This document shows positions 1 to 9,344 of a stretch of 64,000 nucleotides of DNA, piece after piece. The position numbers were made by a program, and so were the translations under genes. Every line of letters starts with the position of its first letter. Positions within the stretch are counted from its first letter, which is position 1. Source of the stretch: Uliginosibacterium gangwonense DSM 18521 (lineage in GTDB: Bacteria; Pseudomonadota; Gammaproteobacteria; Burkholderiales; Rhodocyclaceae); assembly GCF_000373965.1 (NCBI RefSeq), contig NZ_KB892835.1:131954-195953 (forward strand). The letters run 5' to 3'. The notes under the pieces are model-generated. The model saw only the letters and a program-made list of their open reading frames with translations, made no database searches and was not told the DNA's origin.

Positions 1-1
1 C

Positions 2-388
2 ACCCGCCGCAATCCACGCGTGGGTGTTGAGCCCAAGGATTTCCTCTTCCGTATGGATGGCAAGGCCGTTTTCAGGTTGGCCAGCCAGACCATGCCGAGG
101 TTGCTGGATGATGTGCTGTATGAAGCGGGCATCTCTCGTCAACAGCTTGACGTGGTGGTGCCACACCAAGCCAGCCATCTGGGCATGGCGCATCTGATCA
201 AGCGCTTGGATTTGTCCAAGGAACGGGTCGTCAACATCTATCCAACCCATGGCAATCAGGTGGCAGCATCTATTCCCACGGCATTGCACTACGCCTATGA
301 TCAGGGGTTGGCCAAGCCGGGAAAATCCGCCTTGTTGCTGGGGACCGCAGCGGGCTTTACCGCTGGCGCTGCGGTGCTGACGCTATGA
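2..388 (+). CDS. 3-oxoacyl-ACP synthase III / OleA-like condensing enzyme, C-terminal part (5' partial)
   Basis: The reading frame is open to the left edge, so only the last ~128 residues are present. They match the C-terminal half of FabH/OleA-type thiolases. The catalytic histidine sits in VVPHQAS and the catalytic asparagine in HGNQVAASIP; the nucleophilic cysteine would lie outside the window. Such enzymes join two acyl thioesters by Claisen condensation. The stop codon overlaps the start of the next gene (ATGA), so the two are translationally coupled. The reductase and adenylating enzyme downstream favour an OleA-like or secondary-lipid role over primary fatty acid synthesis. The fold is secure; the substrate is unknown. 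Confidence 0.85.
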   Translation, partial: TRRNPRVGVEPKDFLFRMDGKAVFRLASQTMPRLLDDVLYEAGISRQQLDVVVPHQASHLGMAHLIKRLDLSKERVVNIYPTHGNQVAASIPTALHYAYDQGLAKPGKSALLLGTAAGFTAGAAVLTL

Positions 389-1389
389 TGAAAATTCTGG
401 TAACGGGGGCGACCAGTGGCCTGGGGCGCAACGCCGTGGAAGCCTTGCTGCAGCGGGGTATTGAGGCGATTGCACTGGGGCGTGATCGTGCGGTACTGGA
501 TGCAATCGCCCAACGCGGCATCAAGGTATGCCAAGCGGATCTTGCTGCTGTAACGCTTGAAGAAGCGCGTGCACTGGTGCGCGGCATGGATGCCGTCTGG
601 CACTGCGCGGCACTGTCTTCTCCTTGGGGGGCATACCAAGCCTTCTACGAAGCCAATGTGCAAGCCAGCGAAACCTTGTTTCAGGCCTGTGCGGCAGAGG
701 GGGTTGGGCGCTTTGTGCACATATCGACCCCCGCCTTGTACTTTGATTTCAATCATCGCCTGAATATCCGCGAAGATTTCAAGCCTGATCGTCATGTCAA
801 TCATTATGCGGCGACCAAAGCCCTGGCAGAACAGCGCCTGCAATCTTACGCGGCCAGGGCTCCTGACACGCATCTGTGTATTCTGCGGCCCCGTGCGATA
901 TTTGGTCCGCATGACCGGGTGCTCTTCCCCCGTCTGCTCAAGGTGATTGACCCGGCAACAGGTAAATTGACCCTCCCGCGTGCCGGGCGCACCATGCTTG
1001 ATCTGACTTATGCGGCCAATGTGGTACACGCCATGTGGCGGGCTACGGTGGCGGATTATCCCTCTGGATCAGTCTTCAATATCACCAATGGCGAGCCCAT
1101 CCGCGTGGTGGATGCACTGGAGCTATTGCTGGTGCGGGAACTTCAGCGGCCGTTGTATGTCAATGGTTTGCCCTATCCATTGTTGGCAACGGTGGCCTGG
1201 GGAATGGAGCAGGCCGCCCGTGTGACCGGTGTGGAACCTCGCCTGACGCGTTATAGCCTGGGTGCGCTGGCGTTTGATATGACGTTGGATATCACCGAGG
1301 CCAAATCCATGCTGGGGTATGTGCCGGTTGTGTCGCTTGAGCAGGGCATTGCGCATACCGCACGCTGGTTGCAGGAGCATCATGGCTGA
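385..1389 (+). CDS. NAD(P)-dependent epimerase/dehydratase, OleD-like 3-beta-HSD family reductase
   Basis: This 334-residue extended short-chain dehydrogenase starts with a Rossmann motif, LVTGATSGLGRNA, right after the initiator. The catalytic Tyr-x3-Lys is in HYAATKALAEQ. The segment VHISTPALYF resembles the active-site serine strand of OleD and 3-beta-hydroxysteroid dehydrogenase relatives. OleD reduces the beta-keto acid made by OleA to a beta-hydroxy acid, and the same step is plausible here because a condensing enzyme lies directly upstream with a 4-base overlap. Another oxidoreductase or epimerase role is possible; only the fold and catalytic residues can be seen. Confidence 0.82.
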   Translation: MMKILVTGATSGLGRNAVEALLQRGIEAIALGRDRAVLDAIAQRGIKVCQADLAAVTLEEARALVRGMDAVWHCAALSSPWGAYQAFYEANVQASETLFQACAAEGVGRFVHISTPALYFDFNHRLNIREDFKPDRHVNHYAATKALAEQRLQSYAARAPDTHLCILRPRAIFGPHDRVLFPRLLKVIDPATGKLTLPRAGRTMLDLTYAANVVHAMWRATVADYPSGSVFNITNGEPIRVVDALELLLVRELQRPLYVNGLPYPLLATVAWGMEQAARVTGVEPRLTRYSLGALAFDMTLDITEAKSMLGYVPVVSLEQGIAHTARWLQEHHG

Positions 1390-2176
1390 AATTCACGCCT
1401 TCAAGGTTGGTTATTGTACGCATCCCGCCTGCATGGCAGTCAAGGGGGCAGGCTTGCGCCCGCGTCCCTTTCCTTCGCGTGCCTATCTGCTGATGACGCA
1501 ATCCGGCCCCTATCTTTGGGACACGGGTTATTCCGAGCATTTCAGCGAAGAGGCACGCGGCATCTATACTCCGTACCGCTGGGTGACGCCCGTTCATTAC
1601 CAGCATGATGCGGATTGCCTGGAAACGCAGCTCGCCCGCTTTGGCGTGTGGCCGCGTGATATCCGCGCTATCCTCATTTCTCATTTTCATGCTGATCACG
1701 TATCCGGTCTGCGTGATTATCCAGGGGTGCCCATGATGGCATCCCGATTTGCGCTAGACGCCATCCGCAAGCTGCAAGGCTTGGCCGCTCTGCGTAGAGC
1801 CTTTATTCCTGCACTATTGCCAAAGGATTTTGAAGAGCGCATCCAGGCGTTTGAAAGCACGCCGGCGCGAGACCTGCCTGCCGCCTTGCATCCGTTCAAG
1901 CAAGGGTGGCCGATTGATGCGGGTGGCGAACTCTGGGCTGTTGCTTTGCCCGGCCACGCAGAAGGGCACATGGGGGCTTTTGTGCAAACGGAATCAGGCT
2001 GGCAACTGCTCGCTGCGGACGCTGCCTGGGCGCCGGAAGCCTACCGTGAATTGCGTGGCCCGGCAGAGTTGTCTTTCCTGATCCAGCATAGCCGCAAGGA
2101 ATACTACAAGACACTGGCAAAGCTCCATGCGCTGGATGGCAATGGCATCAAGATTCACCTGAGCCATGAGATGTAA
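1382..2176 (+). CDS. MBL-fold metallo-hydrolase
   Basis: This 264-residue protein belongs to the metallo-beta-lactamase superfamily. The metal-binding signature HFHADH is at about residues 101-106, and a later Gly-His (LPGHAEGHMG) supplies further ligands. The ATG at 1382 was chosen because it gives a normal family N-terminus and overlaps the previous gene by 8 bases, as elsewhere in this cluster. Members of the fold hydrolyse lactones, thioesters and other esters. By context it could release or open an acyl intermediate made by the neighbouring condensing and reducing enzymes; that is inference. Confidence 0.85.
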   Translation: MAEIHAFKVGYCTHPACMAVKGAGLRPRPFPSRAYLLMTQSGPYLWDTGYSEHFSEEARGIYTPYRWVTPVHYQHDADCLETQLARFGVWPRDIRAILISHFHADHVSGLRDYPGVPMMASRFALDAIRKLQGLAALRRAFIPALLPKDFEERIQAFESTPARDLPAALHPFKQGWPIDAGGELWAVALPGHAEGHMGAFVQTESGWQLLAADAAWAPEAYRELRGPAELSFLIQHSRKEYYKTLAKLHALDGNGIKIHLSHEM

Positions 2177-2222
2177 TGCCATGTGCAACTGCTTCCGGTG
2201 ATCTGGAATAGGATATTACTTG

Positions 2223-3512
2223 ATGTTCAGCGTTCTCTCTTTGTTGCATCACTATTACTCAGCCCGGCGTCTGCGGTTCAAGGATCGGGCTGCACTGGAA
2301 GCGCATCAGGCACAGGCCTTGTCACGCCATCTCAATTGGCTTTCCGCGCATAGTCCTTATTACGCAGCGTATGCCGGGCTGCCTTTGGCGCAGTGGCCTA
2401 TGGTGGACAAGGCAGCGTGTCTGGCGCATTTCGATACAATGAATACCGCCGGATTGCAACTGGCCGCCGTCAAGGCTGCGGCCCTGCGTGCCGAGCATGA
2501 GCGGGATTTTTCACCGACGCTCGGGAAATATACCGTTGGCCTGTCTTCTGGCACCAGTGGCATGCGTGGCGTGTTTGTGGCAAGCCCTGCCGAGCGCGCC
2601 AAATGGGCGGGGCTGATACTGGCAAAGCTGCTGCCCGATGGATTTTTCCGCCGCGAACGGATTGCCTTCTTTTTGCGGGCCAATAGCAATCTCTACAAAA
2701 GCGTGCAGACCCCATGGATCGGGTTTCGCTTTTTCGATCTGACCGCTGCTTTTGAGCCACAACTCGAAGCGCTGACGCAATACCAACCCAGCATTATCGT
2801 CGCGCCCGCCCAGGTTTTGCGTGCGTTTGCGCTTGCCCAGCGGGAAGGGCGCCTGACCATTGCGCCCAAGCGTGTTATATCGGTGGCAGAGGTGCTGGAA
2901 CCGGGGGACCGTCAGCTGATCGAATCCTTGTGGGTGCCACCTTCAGAAGTGTATCAGGCAACAGAGGGGTTTCTGGGATGTTCATGTTCTCATGGCAATC
3001 TGCATCTGAACGAAGAATATCTGCATATCGAGCCGGAATGGCTGGATGCGGACAAGACCCGCATGGTGCCGATCATCACCGATTTTACGCGTACCACCCA
3101 GCCCATCATCCGTTATCGCCTCAATGATGTGCTGGCGGTGCGCAAGGAGCCTTGCCCCTGCGGCAATCCAACGCTTACCTTGGCGCACATTGAGGGGCGC
3201 TGTGACGATCAATTGCAACTTCCTGCGCAAGCGGGCGGGCAGATGGCGGTGTTTGCCGATGCCATTTCACGTGCTTTGCTGCGGGTCTTGCCGCTTGAAT
3301 TGGATTATCGCCTGACGCAAACAGCCCCAGGTGCCTTGCGATTGGCATGTCCGCTGGAATCGGCACAGGTTCCGGCGGTGTTTTCTGCCCTTGGGCGGGA
3401 GCTTGAACAACTGGGGGTGAATACTGCATTACTCAAATGGGATTGGACGCCACAATTGCCGGTGTTTGACCCCAGTGCAAAACGTCGGCGCATCATACGG
3501 AGCATTACTTGA
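2223..3512 (+). CDS. F390-synthetase/PaaK-like adenylate-forming enzyme
   Basis: About 429 residues, related to phenylacetate-CoA ligase and coenzyme F390 synthetase within the adenylate-forming (ANL) superfamily. A phosphate-binding loop, LSSGTSGMRG, lies near residues 107-116, an A5-like motif YQATEG in the middle, and RYRLNDVL in the position of the usual Tyr-Arg-Thr-Gly-Asp motif. A CPCGNP segment is typical of the PaaK branch. ATG 2223 is preferred over the TTG one codon upstream. It probably activates a carboxylic acid as an adenylate; whether the acceptor is CoA, an amine or an internal hydroxyl (as in OleC) cannot be told. The 3' end overlaps the ATP-grasp gene. Confidence 0.8.
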   Translation: MFSVLSLLHHYYSARRLRFKDRAALEAHQAQALSRHLNWLSAHSPYYAAYAGLPLAQWPMVDKAACLAHFDTMNTAGLQLAAVKAAALRAEHERDFSPTLGKYTVGLSSGTSGMRGVFVASPAERAKWAGLILAKLLPDGFFRRERIAFFLRANSNLYKSVQTPWIGFRFFDLTAAFEPQLEALTQYQPSIIVAPAQVLRAFALAQREGRLTIAPKRVISVAEVLEPGDRQLIESLWVPPSEVYQATEGFLGCSCSHGNLHLNEEYLHIEPEWLDADKTRMVPIITDFTRTTQPIIRYRLNDVLAVRKEPCPCGNPTLTLAHIEGRCDDQLQLPAQAGGQMAVFADAISRALLRVLPLELDYRLTQTAPGALRLACPLESAQVPAVFSALGRELEQLGVNTALLKWDWTPQLPVFDPSAKRRRIIRSIT

Positions 3513-4639
3513 ACATCTTGATCACCGGCGCACGTGCGCCGATCAGCGCCGATCTTGCCCGCGTGCTGGCGGGTGCGGGCCAGCGCATCTGGCTGACGGA
3601 CAGTCTGCGCTGGCCGATTGGCCGTTTTTCGCCGCATATCCAGGGCTTTTGCCAAACACCACCCCCTGTCGGTCAATTCGAGGCCTTTTCACAGGCCATG
3701 GCCGAGCTGGTGGCCGCACACGGCATTGAATGCATCATCCCCACCTCGGAAGAGGTGTTCTGGCTGGCCCAGGTGCCCGCCTTGCAGCCCTTGTTGTTTG
3801 CGCCACCTTTTGAGGTGCTGGATGCACTCCACAACAAGGCGCAATTTGCTCACTTTGCGCAAAGAATGGGTTACGGGGCACCCCAGAATTTTGTTCTGCG
3901 CTCGCAGGACGAAGCGCGTGCCTTTGTGCATGAACATGCCCCGCAGGATTTTGTGTTCAAACCTGTGTACTCGCGCTTTGGCACGTCTGTGCATGTCGAG
4001 CCTTTGCCGCCAACGGTACTCAATCTGGATTTTTCGCGTCCGTGGCTCGCGCAAACCCGCATCAAGGGGCAGGAGGTCTGTTTGTATAATGTTGCCAAGC
4101 AGGGGCGATTGCTCTTGCATCGCGCCTACCTACCCCGGTATCGGGCCGGGCAGGGGGCGAGCATCTATTTTGAGCCGTTTTATGACGATAAACTGTTTGT
4201 GCTGTGTGAAAAGATCATCTCCGCACTGGAATTGAGTGGGCAGATCAGTTTTGATGTGATTCAGGGCGATAGTGGGCCGGTGGTACTCGAATGCAATCCG
4301 CGTGGCACCAGTGGGGTTCATCTTGCAGCCCTGCAGCCGCAAGCTTTTGCCGCTGCCCTGCTGGGCGAATCCGCTTGCGCCGATCATCTGGCACATCAAC
4401 CCAGTGTGCTCGGCCTGCCGTTCTTGATGTATCACGGCCACCAGCTTTGGCGAGATGAGGTCCGTGAGGATCTGGCGCGCGCCCAGGATGCCATGCGGGC
4501 AGCGGGTGTTCCGCGTTGGGCACCTGTTGTTTCCACTGTCGAGGTGCTGGGCCGGGCCTGCCGTTTGATGTGCAACCCGCTGGCTGCCTGTACGCGCGAT
4601 ATCGAATGGAACGGAGTGGTTGATGTTCTTGATGCCTGA
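3509..4639 (+). CDS. ATP-grasp domain ligase
   Basis: About 376 residues with a TTG start that overlaps the upstream stop (TTGA) and follows an ACGGAG-like ribosome site. The N-terminus (ILITGARAP) is a Rossmann-like pre-ATP-grasp fold. The ATP-grasp core follows, with DFVFKPVYSRFGTSV as the nucleotide-binding lysine strand and LECNPRGTSG as the metal-binding Glu/Asn motif. Such enzymes couple carboxylates to amines or thiols through acyl-phosphates. Beside an adenylating enzyme and a GNAT-like protein, it suggests that the product carries an amide or peptide bond. The substrate is unknown. Confidence 0.82.
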   Translation: MNILITGARAPISADLARVLAGAGQRIWLTDSLRWPIGRFSPHIQGFCQTPPPVGQFEAFSQAMAELVAAHGIECIIPTSEEVFWLAQVPALQPLLFAPPFEVLDALHNKAQFAHFAQRMGYGAPQNFVLRSQDEARAFVHEHAPQDFVFKPVYSRFGTSVHVEPLPPTVLNLDFSRPWLAQTRIKGQEVCLYNVAKQGRLLLHRAYLPRYRAGQGASIYFEPFYDDKLFVLCEKIISALELSGQISFDVIQGDSGPVVLECNPRGTSGVHLAALQPQAFAAALLGESACADHLAHQPSVLGLPFLMYHGHQLWRDEVREDLARAQDAMRAAGVPRWAPVVSTVEVLGRACRLMCNPLAACTRDIEWNGVVDVLDA

Positions 4640-5735
4640 GGTATGTGATCCCTGGCAGGCTTTTTTGCATACGGCCCTGCTGCCCCGGCGCTTGGCGAGC
4701 AACTTGAGCGTGGATACCCATCTGGTATTGGCAGGAGGGCAGAATATGCCTGTGACACTCAATCTGGATGGGCAGGCTATGACCAGCTGGGTAGCAAGTT
4801 TGCGCAACAGTTACGGCCCCTATGCACGTGCCGAGACTGATCTGGTGGGTATGTCCCCTTGGCTCAAGCCCTTGTACCAAGGGGCGTCACAATTTGCCGA
4901 GCGGCTTTTGTGCATGGGGGGCTTGAAGGGTGGTTTGTTTCTGAACAACTGGTTGCTGGCAACCAATCTGTATTCGCAGGCGTTTGACTGCGCATCCATT
5001 TTGCATGCGTGTGCTGAACTGGAAAAGACATATCCTGACGTGCCCGTTGTGGTGCGTTCGCTGGTGGCGCCACTGCATGCACGCCTGATGGCGGAGCTGG
5101 CGCAAGCCGATTTTGTCTTTCTGCCTACGCGGCAGGTCTGGTTGCAGCATGAAATCCAGACGGGCGGTTGGCGCCACCATTCGGACGTTAAAAAGGATCT
5201 GGCACTTGAGCACCGCAAGGCGGCCACTACCGAGTGGGTGCCTGGGGCGCAGTTTTGCGATGCAGATTTCTCCCGTGCCTGTAGCCTTTATAATGCATTG
5301 TATCGTGGCCGCTATCCGGTTCATAACCCGGATTACCAGGACGCTTTCTTTCGCCTAGGGGTACAATCCGGATGGTTGCGCCTGTACGGGCTACGCGAGC
5401 CGGGCAAGCCTTTATGTGGCGTGGTGGGGGTGATCGAACGTGAAGGGGTGTATGCCACACCGGTATTGGGTTACGACCTGACCGCAAGCACGGCGGAGGG
5501 GCTCTATCGGCGCCTGATGCTGAAGGCATTTCTAGAAGTGGAGGAGGGCCGGGGGATTTTGCATTGTAGCGGTGGTGCCGGGCATTTCAAACGCCAGCGT
5601 GGGGCATGTAGCGCGGTGGAATTTGCGGCCATCCATGTTGCCCGTCTTTCCAGGCCCCAGCGTGCTGCCTTGCGCAGCTTGGCGGGATTGCTGCACAAGC
5701 TGGCTGTGCCCTATCTGCAGGAGAAAGTGTTGTGA
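4623..5735 (+). CDS. Uncharacterised protein, probable GNAT-fold acyltransferase
   Basis: About 370 residues with no clear signal peptide or membrane segment. I do not recognise the family firmly. The C-terminal half resembles acyl-CoA N-acyltransferase folds of the FemAB/GNAT type: a central strand with GVVGVIEREG, then GLYRRLMLKAFLEVEE as a possible acyl-donor-binding helix, then a conserved-looking SGGAGHFKRQRGA motif. The start overlaps the ATP-grasp gene by about 17 bases and the stop overlaps the PAP2 gene (GTGA), so it is part of the same transcript. An amine- or hydroxyl-acylating role in the cluster is a guess. Confidence 0.5.
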   Translation: MFLMPEVCDPWQAFLHTALLPRRLASNLSVDTHLVLAGGQNMPVTLNLDGQAMTSWVASLRNSYGPYARAETDLVGMSPWLKPLYQGASQFAERLLCMGGLKGGLFLNNWLLATNLYSQAFDCASILHACAELEKTYPDVPVVVRSLVAPLHARLMAELAQADFVFLPTRQVWLQHEIQTGGWRHHSDVKKDLALEHRKAATTEWVPGAQFCDADFSRACSLYNALYRGRYPVHNPDYQDAFFRLGVQSGWLRLYGLREPGKPLCGVVGVIEREGVYATPVLGYDLTASTAEGLYRRLMLKAFLEVEEGRGILHCSGGAGHFKRQRGACSAVEFAAIHVARLSRPQRAALRSLAGLLHKLAVPYLQEKVL

Positions 5736-6358
5736 GTGCAAGGGAGCGCGTGCTGCGCTGGTGGCTGGCTTTGCTGGGAAATACCATCCTGTACGGCGGC
5801 ACGGGCTATTTTGCCGGGAATCCGATCCATGCCGTGCCCCCTGTTATGCTGGATGAGTGGATTGGTTTTAGCCCTCACGCCATATGGGGATATATGTCGT
5901 TTTTTGTGTTGATCGGCTGGACCTTTCTGCGCGTACCAGCGGCGGTGGCCCGTTGCCTGACCTGGCTGATTCCGGCAACTTCCGCTTTTGCGGCGATTTT
6001 TTTCTGGCTGTATCCAACCCGCATTGGTGTGGCCCAGCCCTGCGGGATGGAGAACCTGAGTGCGTGGGCGTGTCACGTCTTGCAATCGACGGACACCCCC
6101 TATAACTGTCTGCCGTCCTTGCATGCGGCCATCAGTGTGTTGTGTGTGGGCGCGCTGTGGTCTGCCGTCGGGCGTTATGCGAGGATGGTTTATCTGGTTT
6201 GGGCTGTGTGGATCTGCTGGTCTGCCATCGCGCTACGCCAGCATCTGAGTGCCGATATTTTGGCGGGCGCCGTTTTGGGGGCTGTGGCAGTCTGGCTTGC
6301 GTGGGATCAATTCCAGGCGCAGCGCTTGCCCAAGGCGGGGCTGGGAAGAACGGCCTGA
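5732..6358 (+). CDS. PAP2-family membrane phosphatase
   Basis: 208 residues with about six hydrophobic segments. Two of the three PAP2 signature motifs are visible: PSLHAA near the middle, and RQHLSADILAG carrying the second catalytic histidine and its aspartate. The first Lys/Arg-Pro motif is not obvious, which is common in the inositolphosphotransferase-like branch. It starts at GTG overlapping the previous stop. PAP2 enzymes remove phosphate from lipid phosphates or transfer phospho-headgroups. As the last gene of the cluster it points to a membrane-lipid product or precursor. Confidence 0.78.
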   Translation: MSARERVLRWWLALLGNTILYGGTGYFAGNPIHAVPPVMLDEWIGFSPHAIWGYMSFFVLIGWTFLRVPAAVARCLTWLIPATSAFAAIFFWLYPTRIGVAQPCGMENLSAWACHVLQSTDTPYNCLPSLHAAISVLCVGALWSAVGRYARMVYLVWAVWICWSAIALRQHLSADILAGAVLGAVAVWLAWDQFQAQRLPKAGLGRTA

Positions 6359-6429: not shown

Positions 6430-6507
6430 TTCCCTTGCGCCAAGCCTGTTGTGTAGTGTGACAGGCTGAGTTGCCAGGGGCTCCGTTCCTGTTTGAGGTT
6501 CCCCCGC

Positions 6508-7908
6508 GTGTTTCGCATTCCTAAACTTGTACTGATCCCCATGATCGTGGCCTGTGCGCTCTTCATGGAGAACATGGATTCCACTGTGATCGCCACCTCC
6601 TTGCCCACCATTGCGCGGGACTTGGGTGAGAATCCGATTGCGCTGAAACTGGCGCTGACGTCCTACTTGCTCAGTCTGGCTATCTTCATACCGATCAGTG
6701 GCTGGATGGCGGATCGGTTTGGTGCCCGCACGGTGTTCCGTACCGCCATCTGGGTGTTCATGGGCGGCTCCATGCTGTGCGCATTTTCAAATTCCCTGCT
6801 CGGTTTTGTGGCAGCCCGCTTTGTTCAGGGCATGGGCGGGGCGATGATGGTGCCGGTGGGGCGCCTGGTGGTGCTGCGTTCCGCTACCAAAGAAGAGTTG
6901 GTACGGGCGTTGAGCTACCTGACGATTCCCGCGCTGGTCGGCCCGGTGATCGGCCCGCCCCTTGGGGGCTTCATCAGTACCTATTTCCATTGGCGCTGGA
7001 TCTTTTTCATCAACATCCCGATCAGCATCATCGGCATCGTGATGGCAGGCATCCACATCGAAAACCTGAAGGAGGCGCAGACGCCTCCGCTGGATATCCC
7101 CGGCTTTATGCTGTCGGCAGTGAGCCTTTCACTGCTCATGATGGGGTTGGCAACTTTTGGGCGGCATCTGTTGCCGACCCCAATATCGGTGCTGTGCGTG
7201 GTCATTGGTGCCATCCTGCTTGCAGGCTATGTCTTCCAGGCCCGACGCACCGAGCACCCACTGCTCAATCTCGATTTGTTCCGGATTCCCTCCTTCAACG
7301 CAGGGGTGACCGGCGGGTTCTTCTTTCGCATTGGCATCGGGGCAATCCCTTTCCTGCTGCCCCTGATGCTGCAACTGGGGTTTGGCCTCAACTCCTTCGA
7401 GTCTGGCATGCTCACCTGTGCCTCGGCGATTGGTGCCATCTTCATGAAAACCATCGCCGCAAAAATCCTGCAGCGCTATGGTTTCCGTTCTGTGCTGGTG
7501 ACCAATACGGTGCTGGTCACGGCATCGTTGGCGGTGATCGGGCTGTTCACCCGCACCACCCCGGCCATGGTCATCATCAGCATCTTGCTGCTGGGGGGCT
7601 GTTTCCGTTCGCTGCAATTTACCAGTCTGAATGCTCTGTCATATGCCGACATCGACAAACCCGTGATGAGCCAAGCTACCAGCATGGCCAGCGTAGTCCA
7701 GCAACTGGCCGCCGGGATGGGGATTACCGTGGGTGCGCTGGCTTTGCAGGGCAGCAACTGGTTTCAGGGCCATGCCCAGATCGTGGCGGGGGACTTCCCG
7801 CCAGCCTTCCTGTTCGTGTCTTTGGTTTCTCTCTCGTCGCTCTTCTGGCTGAACCGCCTTGCCAAAGATGCAGGGGCCGAGATTTCTGGTCATCAGAGCG
7901 AGGGTTGA
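6508..7908 (+). CDS. MFS transporter, DHA2 (EmrB-like) family
   Basis: About 466 residues with some 14 hydrophobic segments, the topology of DHA2 drug:proton antiporters. Family landmarks are ENMDSTVIATSLPTIA in helix 1, GWMADRFGARTVF in the helix 2-3 loop, FVQGMGGAMMVPVGR in helix 4, and GPVIGPPLGGFI as the antiporter motif in helix 5. GTG 6508 was chosen because a GAGG lies about ten bases upstream; an ATG at 6541 is the alternative but would cut into helix 1. It is probably an inner-membrane exporter of drugs or metabolites. It may export the product of the upstream cluster, though 149 bases separate them. Confidence 0.82.
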   Translation: MFRIPKLVLIPMIVACALFMENMDSTVIATSLPTIARDLGENPIALKLALTSYLLSLAIFIPISGWMADRFGARTVFRTAIWVFMGGSMLCAFSNSLLGFVAARFVQGMGGAMMVPVGRLVVLRSATKEELVRALSYLTIPALVGPVIGPPLGGFISTYFHWRWIFFINIPISIIGIVMAGIHIENLKEAQTPPLDIPGFMLSAVSLSLLMMGLATFGRHLLPTPISVLCVVIGAILLAGYVFQARRTEHPLLNLDLFRIPSFNAGVTGGFFFRIGIGAIPFLLPLMLQLGFGLNSFESGMLTCASAIGAIFMKTIAAKILQRYGFRSVLVTNTVLVTASLAVIGLFTRTTPAMVIISILLLGGCFRSLQFTSLNALSYADIDKPVMSQATSMASVVQQLAAGMGITVGALALQGSNWFQGHAQIVAGDFPPAFLFVSLVSLSSLFWLNRLAKDAGAEISGHQSEG

Positions 7909-7976: not shown

Positions 7977-9344
7977 ATGCCAGATCGTAACCGTTACTTC
8001 CTTGAAGAAGCCCAGATGCCGGGCAAGTGGTACAACATCGCGGCAGACCTGCCCACTCCGCAGGCGCCCCCGCTGCACCCGGCCACCGGCCAGCCGATTG
8101 GCCCGGATGATCTGGCCCCACTGTTCCCGCAGGCCATCATTGCGCAGGAAGTCTCCACCGAACGTTGGATCGACATCCCCGAACCTGTGCAGGAAGTCTT
8201 CAAGCTCTGGCGCCCTAGTCCCCTCTACCGTGCCCGCCGCCTCGAAAAAGCCCTCGACACCCCCGCCAAAATCTATTTCAAGTATGAAGGCGTGTCGCCC
8301 GCAGGGAGCCACAAACCCAATTCCGCGATTCCGCAAGCCTGGTACAACGCCCAGGAAGGGGTGAAGAAACTCGCCACCGAAACCGGGGCAGGGCAGTGGG
8401 GCTCGTCGCTGGCGTTTGCCGGTGGGCTGTTCGGGCTGGACGTGACGGTGTATCAGGTACGTGTCTCCTACGACCAAAAACCCTACCGCCGCGCCATGAT
8501 GGAAACCTGGGGGGCGCGCTGCATTCCCTCGCCATCGCCTACGACTGATGCAGGCCGGGCCATTCTGGCCGCGCATCCCGATCACATGGGTTCGCTGGGC
8601 ATTGCGATTTCTGAAGCGGTGGAAGTGGCAGCCAAGAATCCCGATACAAAATACGCCTTGGGTTCGGTGCTCAACCACGTATTGCTGCATCAGACCATTG
8701 TCGGCCAGGAAGCTATCCTACAGATGGAGATGGCAGGCGATGACCCGGATGTCATCATCGGTTGCACGGGTGGCGGCTCCAACTTCGCGGGGATTGCCTT
8801 CCCCTTTCTTGGCCAGCAACTACGCGGAGAGCATAACAAGCGCCGCTTTGTGGCCGTGGAACCCGCTGCCTGCCCGAGCCTGACGCGTGGCAAGTTCGCT
8901 TACGATTTTGGCGACACCTCGCATCTTACGCCGATGGTGAAGATGCATACCCTGGGTTCCACCTTTACGCCGCCAGGTTTTCATGCCGGTGGCCTGCGCT
9001 ACCATGGCATGGCGCCGATGCTCAGCCATATCGCCAATCTGGGCCTGATTGAAGCGCAAGCCTATCACCAAGGCCCGTGTTTTGAGGCGGGTGTGCTGTT
9101 TGCCCGCACCGAAGGCATCGTTCCCGCACCGGAAGCCACCCATGCGATCAAGGGTGTGGTGGAAGAAGCGTTGCGCTGCAAGCGTGAAGGGCGCGCCGAG
9201 ACTTTGCTGTTCTGCCTCTCCGGTCATGGTCATCTGGATATGGCTGCATATCAGGCGTACTTTGATGGCAAGCTCGTCGATCAGGATTATGACGAAAAGG
9301 AACTCGCCATGGCGCTGTCGATGCTGCCGCAAGTGGCAAGCTGA
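7977..9344 (+). CDS. TrpB2-type tryptophan synthase beta-like PLP enzyme
   Basis: 455 residues, the length of the TrpB2 branch and longer than ordinary TrpB. The PLP lysine is in PAGSHKPNSA (about Lys113), and the phosphate-binding glycine loop is GCTGGGSNFAG. The N-terminal extension with YNIAADLP is typical of TrpB2. A good ribosome site (TAGGAGA) precedes the ATG. No trpA, trpC or other tryptophan gene is adjacent, so it is an orphan. TrpB2 can make tryptophan from indole and serine without TrpA, perhaps as an indole-salvage enzyme; other PLP beta-replacement substrates are possible. Confidence 0.9.
   Translation: MPDRNRYFLEEAQMPGKWYNIAADLPTPQAPPLHPATGQPIGPDDLAPLFPQAIIAQEVSTERWIDIPEPVQEVFKLWRPSPLYRARRLEKALDTPAKIYFKYEGVSPAGSHKPNSAIPQAWYNAQEGVKKLATETGAGQWGSSLAFAGGLFGLDVTVYQVRVSYDQKPYRRAMMETWGARCIPSPSPTTDAGRAILAAHPDHMGSLGIAISEAVEVAAKNPDTKYALGSVLNHVLLHQTIVGQEAILQMEMAGDDPDVIIGCTGGGSNFAGIAFPFLGQQLRGEHNKRRFVAVEPAACPSLTRGKFAYDFGDTSHLTPMVKMHTLGSTFTPPGFHAGGLRYHGMAPMLSHIANLGLIEAQAYHQGPCFEAGVLFARTEGIVPAPEATHAIKGVVEEALRCKREGRAETLLFCLSGHGHLDMAAYQAYFDGKLVDQDYDEKELAMALSMLPQVAS

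Follow-up and report, generated by a model that had tools for sequence, protein, structure and literature searches.

The condensing enzyme OleA depends on Glu117, a residue that is essential for its function and that is followed by proline in all but two of the OleA proteins of PMC7064751 (here and below, papers are cited from excerpts of their text). Glu105, the equivalent residue of PpyS, is likewise essential, and MxnB and CorB have Val94 at this position, their alpha carbon being placed between two carbonyls (PMC4578411). MxnB joins two beta-ketoacyl chains to give an alpha-pyrone (PMC5724707; PMC4578411), and the second of these papers places MxnB and CorB inside the FabH clade. Here we analyse a seven-gene operon that begins with a condensing enzyme of the beta-ketoacyl-ACP synthase III (KASIII) type and lies at the left end of a 64,000-nucleotide stretch of Uliginosibacterium gangwonense DSM 18521 (hereafter the window; contig NZ_KB892835.1, G000:C2:131954-195953) in a genome of 5.02 Mb. 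We propose, with a probability of about 0.55, that the operon serves the biosynthesis of an uncharacterised lipid, in which a four-gene core would make the hydroxylated backbone and variable modules would add the head group, because head-group-like genes are repeatedly exchanged around one core. An original prediction, made from the DNA letters, had read the cluster as a rewired Ole pathway leading to a new lipid class; the latter part stands as a fair hypothesis.

Operon organization and a conserved four-gene core

All seven genes lie on the + strand in the order KASIII, SDR, MBL, PaaK-like adenylase, ATP-grasp, GNAT-like and PAP2-like, and overlap at five of the six junctions, which agrees with the overlapping cluster that had been predicted. 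The window opens inside the first gene. The 3' part of the KASIII gene (128 codons, PF08541/PF08545) occupies 1..388, and the full gene of 324 codons (L002:17368-18342) starts 587 bases left of base 1, so that the cluster start lies left of the window as anticipated; one codon reads X because the base directly left of the window edge is N in the contig. ATGA at 385-388 couples this gene, again as predicted, to that of an OleD-like extended SDR reductase (385..1389, ATG 385 or 388), which was named after its best NCBIfam match and ends at 1389, downstream of ATG 1382 of the gene for an MBL-fold hydrolase resembling acyl-homoserine-lactone (AHL) lactonases (1382..2176). The sole gap lies between the end of the latter at 2176 and the ATG at 2223, or alternatively the TTG at 2220, of the PaaK-like adenylating enzyme (2223..3512, TIGR02304). 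TTGA at 3509-3512 joins the adenylase gene to that of an ATP-grasp ligase-like protein (3509..4639), whose end at 4639 lies within the gene for a GNAT/Acetyltransf_6-like protein (4620..5735, start TTG 4620 or ATG 4623), and GTGA at 5732-5735 leads into the last gene, for a PAP2-superfamily membrane protein (5732..6358) that is SMS (sphingomyelin synthase)/AUR1-like by model.

The first four genes were present together in 28 of 31 loci from four phyla, that is, in 27 of the 30 other loci, whereas all seven were found together in none of these 30. Thus the predicted conservation of the neighbourhood holds for the core and not for the whole cluster; beyond the core, other loci carry ATP-grasp/GNAT or PAP2 genes in separate lineages. 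The set consisted of the window, 29 loci found via the adenylase, and that of Escherichia coli Nissle 1917 (L054), found because its DNA resembles locus L048 of Escherichia whittamii. From 65 matching plasmid records 13 were taken, picked by hand from the best 20 rows for spread over genera. Among seven named genome loci, L048 and L052 were excluded as near copies of others, and the near relatives L040/L041, L047/L055, L049/L054 and L044/L045 were kept. The core was incomplete in L051, whose contig begins within the reductase; in Pseudomonas plasmid pBASL58 (L057), where the condensing-enzyme gene lies about 8 kb away; and in Pseudomonas plasmid pMPPla107 (L073), which has the adenylase and ATP-grasp genes with KASIII about 18 kb away. 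On these two plasmids genes of the core type are spread across roughly 8 to 18 kb amid mostly hypothetical genes.

The order KASIII-SDR-MBL-adenylase was found in 23 loci; two Bacillota have the ATP-grasp gene inserted after KASIII, and in three loci (Microbacterium, Fusobacterium and L071, from the window bacterium's own order) KASIII follows the adenylase. The 23 include L046, where the KASIII gene is in split open reading frames (ORFs). That genome (L046/L005, G001) is very probably the insect symbiont Candidatus Dactylopiibacterium carminicum, and its cluster looks disrupted: the adenylase has a gap of 19 residues relative to that of the window, and the ATP-grasp reading frame continues into unrelated sequence. 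An assembly error is possible.

A control search was started from the condensing enzyme. It matched 106 plasmid records, of which the best 40 were examined using adenylase positions from 60 of the 65 adenylase records. Among the first 24 ranked, the adenylase lay within 4 kb in 22, including five near-identical Ketogulonicigenium records; it was about 8 kb off in one, and the other was an orphan in Paracoccus sp. TOH. Among the next 16, six of them annotated fabH, it lay within 4 kb in one and about 18 kb off in one. The orphan, a cluster-type KASIII gene on plasmid p3 (L137:6986-7972), stands beside a TetR gene with no reductase, MBL or adenylase gene adjoining.

The Cys-His-Asn triad was present in every aligned KASIII. 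Ser114, Tyr141 and Lys145 of the reductase, the catalytic residues of SDR enzymes, were conserved in all 30 copies, as were the His/Asp metal-ligand residues of the MBL protein (30 of 30), and Thr112, Glu249, Asp303 and Lys421 of the adenylase (Lys421 being numbered from TTG 2220) in 31 of 31. Because the block recurs in distant genomes with active-site residues kept in every aligned copy, we regard the core as more than a chance arrangement.

Modules exchanged around the core

Two architectures surround the core. Architecture A, found in nine loci, adds PAP2, hydroxylase and desaturase genes and lacks ATP-grasp and GNAT genes; L051 shows the first two before its contig ends. Architecture B comprises ten other loci with an ATP-grasp gene, six of them also with a GNAT gene and none with PAP2. 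The window has ATP-grasp, GNAT and PAP2 genes and no hydroxylase or desaturase, a combination found in none of the 30 other loci. Its KASIII, reductase and adenylase fall in the A clade (11 rows each, with support of 100/100, 98 and 99 respectively), to which L043, where the core alone is seen, also belongs by sequence. In the MBL tree the smallest supported set holding the window had 11 rows (99), and the five nearest rows were all of architecture A. The ATP-grasp tree did not place the window copy firmly; this and the reductase, adenylase and MBL trees were quick trees built without bootstrap and with some rows omitted. Given these placements, the window looks like a hybrid of an A core with the ATP-grasp/GNAT pair of B.

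In E. coli Nissle 1917 and CFT073 a version of architecture A lies between narI and purU, with the core followed by PAP2, FA_hydroxylase and FA_desaturase genes. This seven-gene stretch was matched in 672 of 5,426 complete E. coli genomes, and in 671 (about one in eight) at least 80% of its length is found at a single place; carriers include Nissle 1917, CFT073, the reference strain ATCC 25922 and an ST131 strain. The best NCBIfam match of the E. coli hydroxylase was OlsE, at 66.6 bits well under the cut-off of 475. The excerpts of two papers on CFT073 and uropathogenic strains (PMC2831201, PMC5320621) make no mention of the cluster.

Other genomes carry other neighbours. Three Rhodobacterales have divergent TetR and divergent sulfotransferase genes beside the core. 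DUF3419, which we take to be a BtaA-type family, adjoins it in two unrelated loci, L071 and L139 (346.9 and 145.8 bits, cut-off 28.2), and in Fusobacterium an SDR gene and a gene for a glycosyltransferase like GT21 (69.9 bits, cut-off 21.7), presumably of the ceramide-glucosyltransferase type, lie upstream of the core. A Rieske protein is encoded near the core in Shinella, Rhizobium and Roseateles.

The three window genes behind the core follow in the predicted order and match the predicted families, that of the GNAT-like protein weakly. The ATP-grasp protein scored 32.2 bits with ATP-grasp_3 (cut-off 23.2) and 276.6 bits with PRK06849, below its cut-off of 406; its E-x-N-[PA]-R motif was conserved in 11 of 11 copies, and a profile search of the PDB matched 2pn1 and AMdnB. 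PDB searches with the ATP-grasp or the GNAT sequence by itself yielded no useful match, and a GNAT profile yielded none at all. With Acetyltransf_6 the window GNAT-like protein scored 20.5 bits, just under the cut-off of 22, and four of the five members scanned matched this family (E up to 1).

For the PAP2-like protein, the term phosphatase in the original prediction did not hold. Despite a score of 43.8 bits with PF01569 (cut-off 27.2), a PAP2 lipid phosphatase is not supported, since the motifs KX6RP, PSGH and SRX5HX3D, which we take to be those of PAP2 phosphatases, are all missing from the six aligned members; PSLH and HxxxD are present in all six. A model built from six sequences (mean predicted local distance difference test score, pLDDT, 85.1) gave 8ijq, 9vj4 and 9ivc as best Foldseek matches. 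A sphingomyelin synthase-related protein with ceramide (E 7.7e-4), inositol phosphorylceramide synthase with ceramide (1.7e-3) and Aur1 (8.2e-3) ranked above the phosphatases LPP1 (2.6e-2), PgpB (3.3e-2) and LpxE (6.5e-2). The E. coli protein also gave 20.6 bits with the NCBIfam phosphoinositol dihydroceramide synthase (cut-off 480), a match that the window copy did not show. By its modelled fold the protein is nearest to ceramide head-group transferases of the SMS/AUR1 type, and a transfer activity is predicted. No serine palmitoyltransferase was found among the seven operon genes, the remaining genome not having been searched for one.

A proposed lipid pathway

The proposal starts from the genes, their order and overlaps, the conserved active-site residues, the four-gene core and the modelled folds of the adenylase and the PAP2-like protein; from these we infer the product, the substrates, the order of steps, the number of chains, the acceptor of the adenylate and what the ATP-grasp and GNAT-like proteins add. 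The KASIII cysteine would take an acyl chain and link it to another thioester, which could be malonyl-ACP or, as with MxnB, an activated beta-ketoacyl thioester, in a condensation that would proceed without the glutamate of the OleA mechanism. The SDR would turn the new ketone into an alcohol, the MBL enzyme would release a free hydroxy acid by hydrolysis of a thioester or lactone, and the PaaK-like enzyme would activate this acid as an adenylate to be passed to an amine, alcohol or thiol. The original prediction had also foreseen condensation, reduction and adenylation, and these steps are supported. A lineage-specific module would then add a polar group: in the window the ATP-grasp ligase and GNAT-like protein would probably carry out an amide or acyl transfer, and the SMS/AUR1-like membrane protein may transfer a phospho-head group to the hydroxyl of a lipid. 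The FA_hydroxylase, FA_desaturase, SMS/AUR1-like, DUF3419, GT21-like and sulfotransferase genes near the core support a lipid product.

Several observations weigh against this proposal. We know of no product, substrate or mutant. Head-group roles are assigned by family resemblance, and a gene may adjoin the core without taking part in the pathway. The GNAT-like protein is weakly assigned to its family. The window PAP2-like protein scores slightly higher with PF01569 (43.8 bits) than with PF14378 (39.8), its sole NCBIfam match is a weak one to PgpB (15.6 bits, E 0.008), and the margin of the SMS/AUR1 folds over the phosphatases is modest. For the GT21-like protein, the hopanoid enzyme HpnI comes out best in NCBIfam (48.5 bits, cut-off 310). 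Finally, no head-group family was found in the one or two flanking ORFs scanned in each of L070, L072 and L074, in a scan of flanks that left out L053; one such ORF of L072 matched 2H-phosphodiesterase.

The strongest rival is a diffusible signal or small natural product in place of a membrane lipid: the FabH/MxnB-like condensing enzyme, the adenylase and the MBL hydrolase would make an acyl amide, a pyrone or a compound like a quinolone for secretion, and the membrane genes would serve export or protection. The operon for the Pseudomonas quinolone signal (PQS) is likewise composed of a KASIII, a ligase and an MBL protein, and the clusters are patchy and at times plasmid-borne. The alpha-pyrone that MxnB makes from two beta-ketoacyl chains (PMC5724707; PMC4578411) points the same way. 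However, the SMS/AUR1-like, OlsE-like, desaturase, DUF3419 and GT21-like neighbours indicate lipids, and we estimate that a signal or natural product accounts for the operon with a chance of roughly one in four.

Within the preferred reading of the operon as a lipid pathway, one more specific idea is tentative, and we think it somewhat improbable as a whole: that the operon belongs to an undescribed, widespread class of ceramide-like bacterial lipids made without serine palmitoyltransferase. The core would build a hydroxylated backbone with two chains or a long chain, to which interchangeable modules would attach phospho, amino-acid-like, betaine-like, glycosyl or sulfate groups, with one version in E. 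coli and two modules combined in the window bacterium. In the open-access literature searched, which did not cover preprints, we found neither the cluster nor a product of it described. If the proposed lipid pathway is true, it has been overlooked in one of the best studied bacteria, including the probiotic Nissle 1917, and TIGR02304, together with the condensing-enzyme, MBL and ATP-grasp families that accompany it, would gain a function.

The condensing enzyme and its partners in the core

By sequence, FabH and MxnB/CorB come closest among characterised condensing enzymes. The KASIII alignment contained 27 cluster enzymes, 11 FabH above the TIGR00747 cut-off, three OleA-type enzymes, six others and MxnB. 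The OleA-type references were identified from their position next to OleD-type genes and from Glu-Pro, without a family search; the OleD-type neighbour of the third falls below the OleD cut-off, whereas those of the other two pass. In the column of OleA Glu117, all 27 cluster enzymes have Leu or Ile (Leu in the window), the three OleA-type enzymes Glu, nine of the 11 FabH Phe, and MxnB Val. A PDB search with the window KASIII gave a FabH as best match (177.7 bits), with 4v2p, presumably MxnB, at 165.9 bits and CorB at 154; the chains 3row, 3s21 and 3fk5, which we take to be Xanthomonas OleA, scored about 60.

The KASIII tree was built after five far rows had been dropped. Cluster enzymes and MxnB grouped together (83/84), with MxnB among or beside the cluster rows, and a single cluster clade was not rejected (p-AU 0.225). 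Ten of the 11 FabH formed their own clade (98/95), one Fusobacterium FabH lying outside it, and two OleA rows sat on a branch of length 4.07. The triad without the OleA glutamate and the tree placement both fit an enzyme of the MxnB/CorB type, and the cluster enzyme may likewise join two chains.

These data bear on a rewired OleABCD pathway, in which an OleA-type enzyme would condense two fatty acyl-CoAs into a 2-alkyl-3-keto acid, a reduction of the OleD type would follow, and OleC and OleB would have been replaced. In its favour, the best NCBIfam match of the window reductase is OleD (NF042422), and its identity to four OleD-type references is 30 to 32%. However, the score of 164.8 bits is far under the cut-off of 580 and the four OleD-type rows occupy one side of a supported split in the reductase tree, so that we rejected OleD membership. 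An OleA identity for the KASIII was rejected as well, on account of the replaced Glu117, the weak PDB match and the long OleA branch. The OleC and OleB positions are indeed taken, as the original prediction had it, by a PaaK/F390-like enzyme and an MBL-fold protein, so that OleC and OleB are absent among the core genes, other genome regions not having been searched for oleB or oleC. With membership of OleD, OleC and OleB failing alongside that of OleA, a rewired Ole pathway is now improbable.

The first gene was expected to be distinct from housekeeping FabH, and it largely is. Its product scored 249.1 bits with TIGR00747 (cut-off 292.1) and lies outside the FabH clade, and a separate FabH elsewhere in the genome scored 394.5 bits. 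With the broad beta-ketoacyl-ACP synthase 3 model PRK09352 (cut-off 249) it passes at 252.9 bits, a model missed by the E. coli (209.3) and Paenibacillus (238.2) copies; with the beta-ketoacyl-ACP synthase III model PRK07204 (cut-off 402) the window (323.5) and E. coli (331) copies fall below and the Paenibacillus copy (424.9) passes. The FabH best PDB match, the PRK09352 result and the placement of MxnB/CorB in PMC4578411 weaken a sharp line between the cluster KASIII and FabH. A duplicate FabH-type operon that does no more than provide ordinary phospholipid or lipid A metabolism with an odd primer or a 3-hydroxy acid can draw on these same three points, yet it is hardly likely in view of the TIGR00747 score, the tree and the genome's own FabH.

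In the proposed lipid pathway, the two remaining core enzymes have the following kin. The MBL protein is nearest to AHL lactonases, with 55.9 bits for the NCBIfam AiiA model against a cut-off of 375. The adenylase passes TIGR02304, 'F390 synthetase-related', with 481.6 bits (cut-off 251.9); no described function for this family was found in the open-access literature searched. Its model, built from seven sequences (pLDDT 82.1), had PaaK-type ligases as nearest PDB folds over the full length (best E 8e-18), with TM-scores of 0.5 to 0.6 and a large root-mean-square deviation, as expected because a two-domain enzyme opens and closes. The family is rare and patchy: in counts that each include the centre genome, it exceeded the cut-off in 2 of 61 relatives and 7 of 398 in the phylum, in 4 of 399 in the order and 2 of 369 in the class, and in 1 of 236 in the phylum of the Microbacterium genome. 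Among the mutated genes of a transposon screen in Pseudomonas syringae pv. actinidiae (PMC9823363) is a 'Coenzyme F390 synthetase' gene, possibly a member of this family.

Surroundings of the operon

The G+C content of the cluster (0.583) is close to that of its flanks (0.588 and 0.593), and base composition gives no sign of recent import; transfer may still have occurred. A divergent helix-turn-helix gene (HTH_3) ends 192 bases left of the operon. Between the two, 163 bases left of the KASIII start, lies a perfect 8+8 bp operator-like palindrome (L002:17185-17205); it had no match at up to three mismatches in the congener locus L052, and as a pattern picked post hoc it was not used as evidence. 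On the same strand, 134 bases 3' of the operon, an ORF at 6493-7908 of the window resembles a major facilitator superfamily transporter, and the next, at 7977-9344, is TrpB-like, both by reading of the translation alone.

Comparison with known systems

MxnB and CorB, of the myxopyronin and corallopyronin systems, share with the cluster KASIII the Cys-His-Asn triad and a hydrophobic residue in the Glu117 column (Val in MxnB), and the MxnB stretch TYxxGxxxxE(I/V)RxGG(T/S)R is common to many cluster rows. They terminate modular polyketide assembly lines, whereas the operon has no polyketide synthase or acyl carrier protein gene and its condensing enzyme is followed by a reductase, a hydrolase and an adenylase. 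OleABCD resembles the operon in condensation, OleD-like reduction and an adenylating enzyme, but the operon lacks Glu117, OleC and OleB and has a PaaK-like adenylase and an MBL hydrolase in their stead. The PaaK-type ligases PaaK1, NatL2, AjiA1 and ClxA have the fold of the TIGR02304 adenylase with just 14 to 19% identity. Families related to the ornithine-lipid hydroxylase OlsE and to DUF3419 adjoin the core in other genomes, although neither is among the seven genes of the window. The SMS-related protein and AUR1 are the nearest folds to the PAP2-like protein and share its His-His-Asp site residues (PSLH, HxxxD), although their identity to it is 12 to 18%.

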